IMG/VR virus record: IMGVR_UViG_3300004369_000063
Span: 1-34,344 of that record
Length of the DNA stretch: 34,344 bases
Direction: 5' to 3' (one strand)
Source of the DNA: a virus
The notes under the pieces are model-generated. The model worked only from the letters and a program-made list of their open reading frames with translations, had not been told where the DNA came from and searched no databases. This document shows, piece after piece, positions 28,652 to 34,324 of this stretch. Within the stretch, counting starts at the first letter, position 1. Each line of letters starts with the position of its first letter. The translations under genes were made by a program, and so were the position numbers.

Positions 28652-28846
28652 ATGCAAAGATACGTCAAAGTCGAAGGACAAGAAGGATTTGTAAGAGACA
28701 TGACTACGGGGGCAATTATCAACACTGCTCCCAAGTCATCTCGCAAATCCTTTTCTAGTGAGTTCCGAAATGTAGTCAGCGAAATAAATACTTTGAAGGA
28801 AGAAATGTCCGAAATTAAGTCCCTACTCAAGCAGTTAATCAAATGA
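28652..28846 (+). CDS. Small coiled-coil protein linked to fibre gene, 64 aa
   Basis: ATG 28652 follows the giant stop by one base. The product has an N-terminal beta part (MQRYVKVEGQEGFVRDMTTG, ending GAIINT) and a C-terminal coiled coil (INTLKEEMSEIKSLLKQLIK). I recall this YVKVEG...VRD..TGAIxNT...EMSEIKSLLKxL pattern as a small protein conserved in T4-like cyanophages at this place. The coiled coil suggests oligomerisation, perhaps an adaptor or fibre chaperone. Its stop overlaps the next ATG by 4 nt (ATGA). Function is not established. Confidence 0.7.
   Translation: MQRYVKVEGQEGFVRDMTTGAIINTAPKSSRKSFSSEFRNVVSEINTLKEEMSEIKSLLKQLIK
28783..28790 (+). promoter_or_regulatory. Possible late promoter inside upstream gene
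   Basis: AATAAATA lies within the 64-aa gene, 52 nt before the fibre gene at 28843. Spacing suits a late promoter for the fibre gene, but the octamer also encodes part of the protein, so chance is possible. Confidence 0.3.
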
Positions 28847-30291
28847 CATTACGCAACGTACCAAAGAGTTTTACGCTGGAACAGCAGCGTTTAGAGATTA
28901 ACGAGCTAGCAGTTGATCTTGACGCTGCTGTAGATGGAGTTCAGACATTTACTGGTGTAAAGACATTTGATGATTTCGTAACGTTTTCCACAGATGTAAC
29001 GTTTGAAGCACAAGCTTACTGGGGAGACGGAGACCAGGCAATTTTTGGTGATGATGCTGACTTAAAAATTTACTACGATGGTGGTGTGGGTGTTGAGACA
29101 TCATTCATTGATTCTGATGCTTTGCAGATTAGATCAGCAACTGATACTAGTGAATTGTATGCCACATTCTTGAAGGATGGACCTGTTGAACTATACTATG
29201 ATGGCACCAAGCGATTTGGGACTTCTGCTACGGGTGCATCGGTTATAGGAACTTTTGATGTTAGTGGAGATACAGAATTTAGTGGAACAACTAATTTAAT
29301 TAGTGGTATTAACAAGTTAAACTTCAATACCAATACAGGACAAGAAGGTCAACTTTGGGCAAGCTCTGAACATTTTTACATCAATTCTAGTGCCACTTTT
29401 GGCATGAATATTCAATCCAATTCTATTGCTATAAGAAGTGCAACTGGCGGAGAAAACTATTTTACTGCTAGTATTAATAATGGCGCACTTTTATATCATG
29501 ATGATGTCAAAAAGTTTGAAACCACCGCTACTGGTGTAAGTATCACAGGAAATATTGATAGTGTTACTGATATTTCTGCTTCTGGTGATGTTTCATTTAC
29601 TGGAGCATCTTCATCTTTCACCGTAGCTGGCAGCACTACCTTCAATAACGATGTTGAATTAGCTGATGATAAGGTATTAAATTTTGGTGCAAGTTCTGAT
29701 GGACGTATTTCTTATACATCTTCTACCAATAGATTTTATGTAAGAACTCCTGGTGGATCTGCAGATCTTATTCTTGGTGCTGGTCCAGCAGTTAGAATTA
29801 CTAATGAAAACGGACTGACAGATAGAGCAGTATTCGATTCTAATGGTGTAACAGTCACAGGAACTGTTGATGCTACAGCATTTACCGTTAGTGGATCTCC
29901 ACTACAGACAGATGTTGCAACCACGACTTCTGTCGGTACTGTACAACCAGATGGAACAACCATTGGTATTGATGCTAATGGCGTCATCAGCGTAATTGGT
30001 GGTGGCTATCAAGGTGAGTTTACACTAGGCACAACTCCTACATGGACTGGAACCGCAGGGGTAACAGTTTCGCAACAGTCTAGTGGCAACTATCGCTTGA
30101 CTTTCACAAGTGCATTTACTAATGCCACTGACTACTATGTCTTCACCAATCATATGGATTATGGTGGTGGTCAGGTAGTATTTGTGAAGACTGATAGATC
30201 TAATACTCATGTAGATTTCACTGTATACAGAGAAGGTGACGGTGCATTCGTTGATACTGGATCTGTCGCAGTTCAGGTTATTGCACACTGA
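28843..30291 (+). CDS. Tail fibre-like protein A, 482 aa
   Basis: The N-terminal adaptor (MTLRNVPKSFTLEQQRLEIN) is shared with the next gene and probably docks the fibre to the baseplate. The shaft is built from modules of the type LYYDGTKRFGTSATGASVIG (near 117-137) and LYHDDVKKFETTATGVSITG (217-237), with related DLKIYYDGG near 73, a repeat style common in cyanophage fibre proteins. The distal domain starts after GTVQPDGTTIGIDANGVISV and a Gly-rich hinge (GGGYQGEF), then a compact beta tip ending VAVQVIAH. The tip is the likely host-surface binding part; its ligand is unknown. It overlaps the gene before by 4 nt. Confidence 0.75.
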   Translation: MTLRNVPKSFTLEQQRLEINELAVDLDAAVDGVQTFTGVKTFDDFVTFSTDVTFEAQAYWGDGDQAIFGDDADLKIYYDGGVGVETSFIDSDALQIRSATDTSELYATFLKDGPVELYYDGTKRFGTSATGASVIGTFDVSGDTEFSGTTNLISGINKLNFNTNTGQEGQLWASSEHFYINSSATFGMNIQSNSIAIRSATGGENYFTASINNGALLYHDDVKKFETTATGVSITGNIDSVTDISASGDVSFTGASSSFTVAGSTTFNNDVELADDKVLNFGASSDGRISYTSSTNRFYVRTPGGSADLILGAGPAVRITNENGLTDRAVFDSNGVTVTGTVDATAFTVSGSPLQTDVATTTSVGTVQPDGTTIGIDANGVISVIGGGYQGEFTLGTTPTWTGTAGVTVSQQSSGNYRLTFTSAFTNATDYYVFTNHMDYGGGQVVFVKTDRSNTHVDFTVYREGDGAFVDTGSVAVQVIAH

Positions 30292-31785: not shown

Positions 31786-32415
31786 ATGGCAATTCTATTC
31801 CCAGATACCGCTGGAGAAGCAACAGACGGTTCATTTACACATACAGATGGTGGATTAACCTGGATCTGGAATGGAACCAGTTGGAGATCCAGCGGAGGCA
31901 CTTTAGACTCATACCTTTTACCAACAGCATCTACCACTGTTTTGGGCGGTGTTAAAGTAGATGGAACAACAATCACCATCAGTAATGGAGTAATCAGTTC
32001 TTCTGGAGGTGGCGGTGGTGGAACAAGTCTAGGATCTCGCCAAACATTTACCGCCAGTACATCTTCCACTCACGCAGATGGCACTGACGAGCTTCTAACA
32101 ATTACTGGATTTAAATCTTACGCTTTGTTAAAAGCAACAATATCAGAGCCAGCATGGGTAAGATTGTACTGCGATACCGCTAGCAGAACAGCAGATTCTA
32201 CAAGATCTATTACTGAAGATCCTGCTCCTGGTGCTGGTGTGATTGCAGAATTTATCACAACAACTTCTGGAGAAACCGTTCTTCTTACTCCTGGAGTTTT
32301 TGGGTTCAATAATGACGCAACTCCATCCACAAATATCTATTTACGTGTTGAGAATAGAAGTGGAACTACACAGCAAATTGGAACGACTTTAACTTTAGTT
32401 CAGCTAGAGGCATAA
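31786..32415 (+). CDS. Short fibre/tip protein, 209 aa
   Basis: The N-terminal module (GGLTWIWNGTSWRSSGG) is the small WNGTSW repeat found at the start of many phage fibre proteins. A linker of type LPTASTTVLGGVKVDGTTIT with NGVISSSGGGGGG leads to a C-terminal beta domain (WVRLYCDTASRTADSTRSI ... VENRSGTTQQIGTTLTLVQL). I recall this C-terminal domain in several cyanophage fibres, where it is likely a receptor-binding or capping head. GGAG lies upstream of the start (about 31771). The next gene starts 1 nt after its stop, so the two are probably co-translated. Confidence 0.7.
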   Translation: MAILFPDTAGEATDGSFTHTDGGLTWIWNGTSWRSSGGTLDSYLLPTASTTVLGGVKVDGTTITISNGVISSSGGGGGGTSLGSRQTFTASTSSTHADGTDELLTITGFKSYALLKATISEPAWVRLYCDTASRTADSTRSITEDPAPGAGVIAEFITTTSGETVLLTPGVFGFNNDATPSTNIYLRVENRSGTTQQIGTTLTLVQLEA

Positions 32416-32416
32416 G

Positions 32417-34324
32417 ATGGCAAAGGTAGTTTTAGATGTACATCTTGCTGATGGTGTTGACAAGCAAGAGTTTGTAAATAGTTTCGATCCTGATACTCAA
32501 GCAGATTGGTGGAATATGCTTGATAGTATTCCATGCTGTATTTGTATGCATGTAGAAGAATCTTTTGTAGAGACTTTTAGGCAAGATCCCAGAATCATAT
32601 CTGCTGATGACCGATTAGAAGTTTTTCCAGCTGCTCTACCATCAGCAATTTCTACAACAAAAATAGTAACTGCTTCCACACCATCCACAACATCTAATGG
32701 TGGTGACTATATGCCACTGCAGATGTATGTTGATACTGATCACATCTACCCAACCAATCCTGGGGAAAAGTGTGGCAAAAATGGAACATACGATGACGTA
32801 TCTACCATCCCAAATGCGACACATACTTCAAAATGGACTGGGAGAAATGTTGATATCGTCACTGTAGAAGTTGGTCCTATTAGTTCAGCATATTCTGGAA
32901 ATCACGATACCCATCCAGATTTTGATGATCCTGACAATACAGGGACAAGTAGAGTTATTCCAATGGATTGGAACAGTGTTGCTCCATCTATTACCGAATC
33001 AAGTAATATTCAAGTAACATCAAATTCTCTTTTTAGTAGTCATGCAATGGGTGTTTTGAGTGCTGCTGGTGGGACTATCTGTGGATTTGCAAAAAGATCC
33101 AGCCTACGTGTAATTTACATGACTGGTGCAGATGGAGCAACTGAAGTTATTGATGCTGTTGTTGCATGGCATAATGCAAAACCAAACAATCCAGAAACAG
33201 GAGTTCCCAATCCAACAATTATGATTGGAGAGTTTCAATATTTACAAGATAGAAAACAGTGTATTCCCATTGATTATGTATTTTCAATTACAACTCCAGA
33301 CGGAACAATCAATCGACCAGGATCTAGTTGGGGTACAGATTTCACTCCTTTTGTTGAGAGAAACATAATTCCATTTGCGATATTAAATCCAACTACTACA
33401 ACCTACGAATGGTGTGTAGTTATGCCAACACAATTTAGATCTTCGTCATTACAAGTTTCAACTGATGCTGCGTGGAATGCTGGAATTATTTTTATCAATG
33501 CTGCTGGAAATAATGGTGGAGTATATGTAAAAGAAACCGAAAGGGCAAATTATTCTCTTACCGTAGATGCCGCTACTCCATATTCATATTACACTCTTGG
33601 TGGAAATTCAGTTACCACAGCAACATCATCTGTAACTACTTGGTATCCATTTTATGCATATGGCCCTCATGGATGTGAAAAAGCAATTGATGTTGCTGCT
33701 GGATATAACTCCGAAGGAATTCCTGGTTTAGATACCTATACCAATAGAGGTCCAGGAATTGATATTGTTGGATTGGGAGAAACTACATTTACTGCCTATC
33801 CTTCTCAAACATATGCTGATGGATTCCGATGGGGCATGTTCTCGGGAACTAGCTGTGCAACTCCAACAGTAGTTGGCAAAGCAGCATGTGAAGTTGAAAA
33901 ATATTATTACTTCAATGGCACTTGGCCAACTCCAGAGGAAGTTAAGTCTATCTTAAGAGCAAATGGTAGAGAACTTGTGGTTGGCATTGAAAGCACAGAT
34001 TGGAGTGGTGTTCCTACTGCTGGTGGTTATATATCAAATACCACTGGTGGTGGATTAGCTAGAATATACACTGGATTGAGTGCTAACGGTGGATACTCAT
34101 TTAGCGATTTAGTAGAGACTACTAGAATTAGAGCTCATTTTTCTGACGGTGATGCTAATAATGCGGAGGAAGTCAACGAACTTCCATTAGCGAGAACAAA
34201 TAGATATAAAAGAAGACCATCAGACAACCCAGTAAAAGGTGTTGTTTATCCACGAAGAAAGTTAAGATTCACCCCCGATGTGACTTTCTTATCTCCAAGA
34301 GATGATCTTCCTTCAACGACTTAA
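32417..34324 (+). CDS. Subtilisin-like (S8) protein, Asp replaced by Glu
   Basis: 635 aa. Residues 1-75 resemble an I9 inhibitor/prodomain (ICMHVEESFVETFRQDPRII, then SADDRLEVFP). The S8 fold follows: first catalytic block DIVTVEVG, where Glu151 stands in the Asp position; His209 in SSHAMGVLSAAGG; oxyanion Asn365 in INAAGNNGG; Ser479 in FSGTSCATPTVVG. Spacings are longer than in subtilisin, so loops are inserted (H to N 156, N to S 114). The C-terminus is basic (NRYKRRPSDNPVKGVVYPRR). GAGG (32407-32410) supports the start. The position at the end of the fibre cluster suggests a virion-borne protease or a catalytically weakened binding module that acts on host surface protein or on a fibre. 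Activity cannot be judged from sequence. Confidence 0.8.
   Translation: MAKVVLDVHLADGVDKQEFVNSFDPDTQADWWNMLDSIPCCICMHVEESFVETFRQDPRIISADDRLEVFPAALPSAISTTKIVTASTPSTTSNGGDYMPLQMYVDTDHIYPTNPGEKCGKNGTYDDVSTIPNATHTSKWTGRNVDIVTVEVGPISSAYSGNHDTHPDFDDPDNTGTSRVIPMDWNSVAPSITESSNIQVTSNSLFSSHAMGVLSAAGGTICGFAKRSSLRVIYMTGADGATEVIDAVVAWHNAKPNNPETGVPNPTIMIGEFQYLQDRKQCIPIDYVFSITTPDGTINRPGSSWGTDFTPFVERNIIPFAILNPTTTTYEWCVVMPTQFRSSSLQVSTDAAWNAGIIFINAAGNNGGVYVKETERANYSLTVDAATPYSYYTLGGNSVTTATSSVTTWYPFYAYGPHGCEKAIDVAAGYNSEGIPGLDTYTNRGPGIDIVGLGETTFTAYPSQTYADGFRWGMFSGTSCATPTVVGKAACEVEKYYYFNGTWPTPEEVKSILRANGRELVVGIESTDWSGVPTAGGYISNTTGGGLARIYTGLSANGGYSFSDLVETTRIRAHFSDGDANNAEEVNELPLARTNRYKRRPSDNPVKGVVYPRRKLRFTPDVTFLSPRDDLPSTT

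Follow-up and report, generated by a model that had tools for sequence, protein, structure and literature searches.

Recurrent aspartate/glutamate exchange at the catalytic acid position of cyanophage subtilases paired with a fibre-type gene

The window analyzed here, a 34,344-nucleotide stretch of viral DNA (IMG/VR record IMGVR_UViG_3300004369_000063), encodes a protein with the subtilisin fold in which glutamate occupies the position of the catalytic aspartate, while the other catalytic residues are retained. Across its relatives this position is held by aspartate or glutamate and by no other residue, the two have been exchanged repeatedly, and the gene is paired with an upstream gene of the fibre type. 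The reading that we favor is that of an active, prodomain-bearing Ser-His-Glu subtilase of the phage tail, bound to a fibre protein and cutting a cyanobacterial surface protein; taken as a whole statement, we consider it probable, though narrowly so.

Results and discussion

Sequence and structural features of the subtilase

The gene (32417..34324, on the plus strand like all features discussed below) runs from ATG to stop and specifies 635 residues, and its assignment is based on Pfam, PHROGs and Foldseek. The Pfam Peptidase_S8 model (PF00082) is matched with 34.9 bits, over the curated cut-off of 21.8; as this match is limited to residues 339-514, we located the blocks containing Glu151 and His209 by aligning the protein with relatives in which almost the full length of the Pfam model is matched. 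PF00082 is matched by 25 of the 31 aligned members. The family profile recovers proteinase K-like enzymes and subtilisins with E-values down to 3e-20, and phrog_15006, annotated as 'tail fiber protein' in PHROGs, matches the window subtilase with E 1.7e-170 (570 bits). An AlphaFold2 model computed from a 31-sequence alignment (mean pLDDT 67.9, the core being better and the C-terminus poor) gave 272 PDB matches at E<=0.001 in Foldseek, which point to the subtilisin fold and include the ProteinT protease (E 2e-11, TM 0.69 by target) and unprocessed pro-subtilisin E. In this model Glu151 ends the strand 146-152, His209 starts the helix 208-218 and Ser479 starts the helix 478-500, which we take to be the places of the triad in subtilisin.

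The N-terminal region, residues 1-66 (32417..32614), is a predicted I9-like prodomain, with residues 3-65 modelled by AlphaFold2 as a β-α-β-β-α-β unit. The presence of such a prodomain, as proposed in the initial annotation, is thus supported at the level of fold, by the model and by the pro-subtilisins among the fold matches, but not by Pfam, where I9 (PF05922) is not reached by the window protein and a relative from S-CREM1 attains only E 0.15.

With the S8 enzymes typified by subtilisin and proteinase K (PF00082) the protein shares the fold, the order of the acid, His and Ser blocks, the oxyanion Asn, the GTS-x-A-x-P box and, in the model, the I9-like fold of the prodomain. It differs from them in having Glu for the catalytic Asp, Gly for the second His of HGTH, GTSC for GTSM and I-x-E-x-Q for N-x-S-x-G. 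Because the homology is clear, and the first block of the classical Asp-His-Ser triad carries Glu151, we regard it as a variant related to S8 rather than as a classical S8 peptidase. Two other assignments were considered and rejected. A tail sheath protein with a subtilisin-like domain is at odds with PF00082 being the only Pfam family found at E<=1, and the 'subtilisin' proteins of the tail sheath mentioned in work on a methylophage belong to a different family. The sedolisins (S53, with a Ser-Glu-Asp triad) also combine the subtilisin fold with an active-site Glu (PMC11593635), but their Glu replaces His as the base, whereas that of the window protein replaces Asp, with His209 and Asn365 kept and no Glu at the His position.

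Most relatives within the window clade, defined below, contain either a single inserted domain or two such domains, each ~115 residues long; the window copy lacks both. One insert lies between window residues ~170 and 177 (loci L010, L012, L013, L023, L029, L032-L036 and L038, the last being S-CAM1) and the second at ~304 (L026-L036). In the inserts an invariant Cys-x2-His-x2-Met precedes a His-Pro box, and together they amount to the ligand set of type 1 copper sites in circularly permuted order. An identification as cupredoxin was nevertheless rejected: the model of the inserted domain has a pLDDT of 90, but the PDB entries nearest to it in fold, two-domain laccases, fall short of significance (E 0.86). 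Close to the C-terminus, the motif RRP...G..YPR (34211..34255) is common to Glu-type and Asp-type relatives. It recurs at the end of an ORF of 88 aa, unrelated to the subtilase, that related phages carry (L013:3598-3864), and a role as a general virion tag was rejected, this single ORF, in related loci, being its only other occurrence.

Evolution of the catalytic acid position

The four residues of interest are located exactly as first annotated: Glu151 (codon GAA, 32867..32869) in VDIVTVEVG, His209, the catalytic base (33041..33043), in FSSHAMGV, Asn365 of the oxyanion hole (33509..33511) in AAGN and Ser479, the nucleophile (33851..33853), in FSGTSCATP. All were placed by alignment and, other than Asn365, also by the model. 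Glu151 falls precisely in the column of the catalytic Asp (Asp32 of subtilisin), so that the claim of a subtilase whose acid position is held by Glu is confirmed.

We scored 280 distinct relatives, derived from the wider scans and from isolates, at each alignment column where it was filled. Column 151 contains Asp in 201 proteins, Glu in 77 and a gap in 2, with nothing else, and the copies with filled columns have His209 in 279/279, Asn365 in 276/276 and Ser479 in 272/272. Random residues at 151, 209 and 479, which the initial annotation had named as the observation that would speak against its proposal, were therefore not encountered: there is only D or E at the first, always H at the second and always S at the third. 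Because only Asp or Glu fills column 151 in these 280 relatives, chance is excluded; Glu151 as a chance or sequencing oddity was likewise rejected, being fixed in the whole window clade and recurrent elsewhere. Apparent Lys residues and gaps in this column arose as an artefact when sequences were cut down to their best BLAST segment, and are absent when full spans are used. The earlier suggestion that another Asp may substitute fared less well, for there is no good candidate, the nearest being a clade-specific Glu272 at the position of Ser125.

The window clade consists of S-CAM1-like cyanophages (36 IMG/VR loci and S-CAM1 itself), emerges in the tree as a single group with good support and a long branch, and has Glu in every copy that covers column 151. 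More distant cyanophage relatives, from S-H38, S-CREM1, Sf-FR1 and S-SCSM1, have Asp there. A second clade containing Glu (L171 and its relatives, with the motif HPTA at the His) comprises 37 Glu and 8 Asp proteins, and on a tree built without the catalytic columns it entails at least 4 Glu/Asp changes by parsimony, 3 of which are forced by well-supported branches. Close relatives differ in this residue: identity is 95% between L215 (Asp) and L197 (Glu), and 94% between L205 (Asp) and L203 (Glu), the latter two both being full length. Because the data do not reject a tree that unites both Glu clades (p-AU 0.78), we do not claim two origins of Glu; the switches inside the second clade stand independently of whether there was one origin or two. 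The exchange of Glu and Asp with each other, and with no other residue, is as expected if a carboxylate is needed. Purifying selection is indicated by dN/dS values of 0.13-0.15 between the window subtilase and its nearest relatives, the value against L005 being left out as indels shift the ungapped comparison. A scan of genome contigs found no Glu type in bacteria, and a scan with the Asp clade found six loci in metagenome-assembled or binned bacterial records.

The acid position co-varies with its surroundings. The second His of HGTH, found in most Asp-type relatives, is Gly212 in the window protein (33050..33052, by alignment); it is retained in 185 of the 201 Asp-type proteins and in 0 of the 77 Glu-type ones, which have Gly (40) or Ala (37) instead, an exclusion that is a correlation resting on few lineages. 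Loss of this His probably makes room for the longer Glu side chain. Within the cleft of the window clade, Glu272 (33230..33232, by alignment) occupies the position of the conserved Ser of N-x-S-x-G (Ser125 of subtilisin) in 40/40 proteins; the other scored proteins have Ser, which the second Glu clade also keeps. The window clade has further changed Gly127 to Gln274 and GTSM to GTSC, and these additional changes in the cleft could reflect altered or lost catalysis.

Gene pairing and genomic context

The subtilase follows a fibre-type gene of 209 residues (31786..32415) whose stop ends 1 bp before the subtilase ATG. The window partner has no match in Pfam; its C-terminal domain (32023..32412), ending in LVQLEA, is conserved upstream of both Glu-type and Asp-type subtilases. 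Of the 157 family loci scored, 151 have an upstream ORF whose end lies no more than 15 bp from the subtilase start. The product of this ORF nearly always ends in one domain of ~120 residues that closes with a QLEA-like tail. When this partner domain was used as the query, a subtilase of the family was the next gene in 155 of the 156 cases with enough downstream DNA, among the best 80 loci per scan; this figure is not free of ascertainment bias, because subtilase partners went into building the query and each scan retains only its 80 top loci. Besides the window partner, the genes with the domain are the upstream genes in loci L268-L427, and the subtilases found through it include 109 that are new and distinct. 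A second shared partner domain stands upstream instead in P-SSM2 (L264), S-SCSM1 (L041), Sf-CH8, S-T4 and L011. The motif TPEPG..G..TYR..RE marks this second C-terminal domain, which occupies the same position in L264, L041, L266, L267 and L011.

The wider neighborhood contains genes for a gp8-like baseplate protein and fibres (Pfam, PHROGs), and the order gp8, giant fibre, small ORF, fibres, 213-aa gene and subtilase is kept in S-CAM1. Together with the fibre-type gene 1 bp upstream, these neighbors bear out the original placement of the subtilase in the tail-fibre region. One fibre gene of the window (28843-30291) encodes 482 residues, its counterparts in L003 (1464-3875) and S-CAM1 having 803 and 820 respectively. 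With the L003 subtilase 97% identical to that of the window, the difference in length suggests rapid shortening or replacement of the fibre.

Relationship to known phage subtilases

The initial supposition that such proteins are rare in T4-like phages does not hold for cyanophages: S-CAM1, S-CAM4, S-WAM2, S-RSM4, ACG-2014e/h/i/j, S-H38 and P-SSM2 have relatives, and S8 genes in cyanophages are frequent and already annotated. The record of P-SSM2 describes PSSM2_297 as 'contains PF00082', and an S8 peptidase (T4-GC518) occurs in two co-isolated Prochlorococcus phages (PMC3037559). In the open-access literature, neither Ser-His-Glu subtilases nor the pairing of a fibre-type partner with a subtilase gene turned up, and we found nothing on cyanophage subtilases as enzymes.

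The closest named protein is the 'tail fiber protein' SXBG_00005 of S-CAM1 (phrog_15006), which is 48% identical, has the same Glu and is also encoded downstream of gp8; unlike the window protein, it contains an additional inserted domain with Cys-x2-His-x2-Met and His-Pro-Phe. The Asp-type proteins of S-H38, S-CREM1, S-WAM2, S-RSM4 and P-SSM2 (T4-GC 292) are homologous, with ~24% identity to the window protein over the stretches that tblastn aligns, and several have the YPR motif, but they differ in displaying the canonical Asp, HGxH and GTSM. Those of S-H38, S-CREM1 and S-WAM2 share the upstream partner domain of the window, whereas P-SSM2 and S-SCSM1 have a different one.

Functional implications

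Recurrence of the Glu swap across a large virus family suggests that the genes are probably not dead and encode functional enzymes whose active site is unusual. The initial expectation of some activity thus finds support in the sequences, with Ser, His and Asn invariant and the acid only D or E, and the protein is probably still active. An active tail protease is favored because its machinery is strictly conserved, the exchange of the acid is recurrent and the gene is under purifying selection. We envisage that the prodomain would aid folding and then inhibit the enzyme until it is cleaved, with Ser479 acting as nucleophile, His209 as base, Asn365 forming the oxyanion hole and Glu151 serving as the third residue, although the longer side chain of Glu could misplace the base. 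The subtilase and the upstream fibre-type protein (31786-32415) would be expressed together, and the former probably binds the C-terminal domain of the latter, so that the enzyme would sit on the tail and could cut a cyanobacterial surface protein during adsorption. The link to the virion is suggested by gene position and annotations. The S-SCSM1 homologue is labelled a virion protein in its record; 45 proteins were measured in the S-SCSM1 virion proteome (PMC9602691), of which the subtilase homologue may be one, and for the window clade we found no proteomic evidence of presence in virions. A host surface protein as the substrate is our guess, and one that fits a position on the tail.

Among the alternatives, the one that survives best, though we consider it unlikely, is a protease of fibre maturation, whose target within the infected cell would be the neighboring fibre protein, or nothing but its own prodomain, any place in the virion being incidental. 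The near-constant adjacency of one partner domain (the 155/156 noted above, for the best 80 loci per scan), the start of the subtilase at the stop of the partner and the modelled prodomain are all consistent with such a role. The adjacency, however, fits an assembly partner equally well, and because the C-terminal ending of the partner is conserved to its last residues, it has no obvious removable tail. It is more improbable still that the protein is a pseudoprotease, whose subtilase fold is retained because it gives the fibre a structural or receptor-binding part, with Glu marking the loss of activity. Glu151 and the further cleft changes of the window clade, along with the 'tail fiber protein' annotation, would suit this interpretation. 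Pseudoproteases are, however, expected to lose the nucleophile or the base in some lineages, whereas here Ser, His and Asn are invariant in the covered copies of 280 proteins, the acid never strays beyond D or E, and E and D are exchanged between close relatives. Least probable of all is that Glu272, restricted as it is to the window clade and present in all its members, is the acid partner of His209 there or acts as a pair with Glu151, since the second Glu clade combines Ser at this site with Glu at 151, making Glu151 independent of Glu272, and it is through its carbonyl rather than its side chain that Ser125 of subtilisin contacts the base (PMC11593635).

Extending the favored reading of an active tail protease, we tentatively propose, with rather more doubt than confidence, a natural Ser-His-Glu class of subtilases whose members, having lost the second His of HGTH, can exchange Glu and Asp for one another in the course of evolution, deployed as a tail-mounted two-gene fibre-protease cassette, with Glu272 of the window clade altering specificity or catalysis.

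Conclusion

The natural Asp/Glu pairs, near-identical at 94-95%, make the third residue of the triad testable with almost no engineering. More generally, these observations point to a frequent and little-studied module of marine phage tails, in which a protease gene is locked to one fibre domain. This fibre-protease module may be the way of these phages past the protein layers of their hosts.
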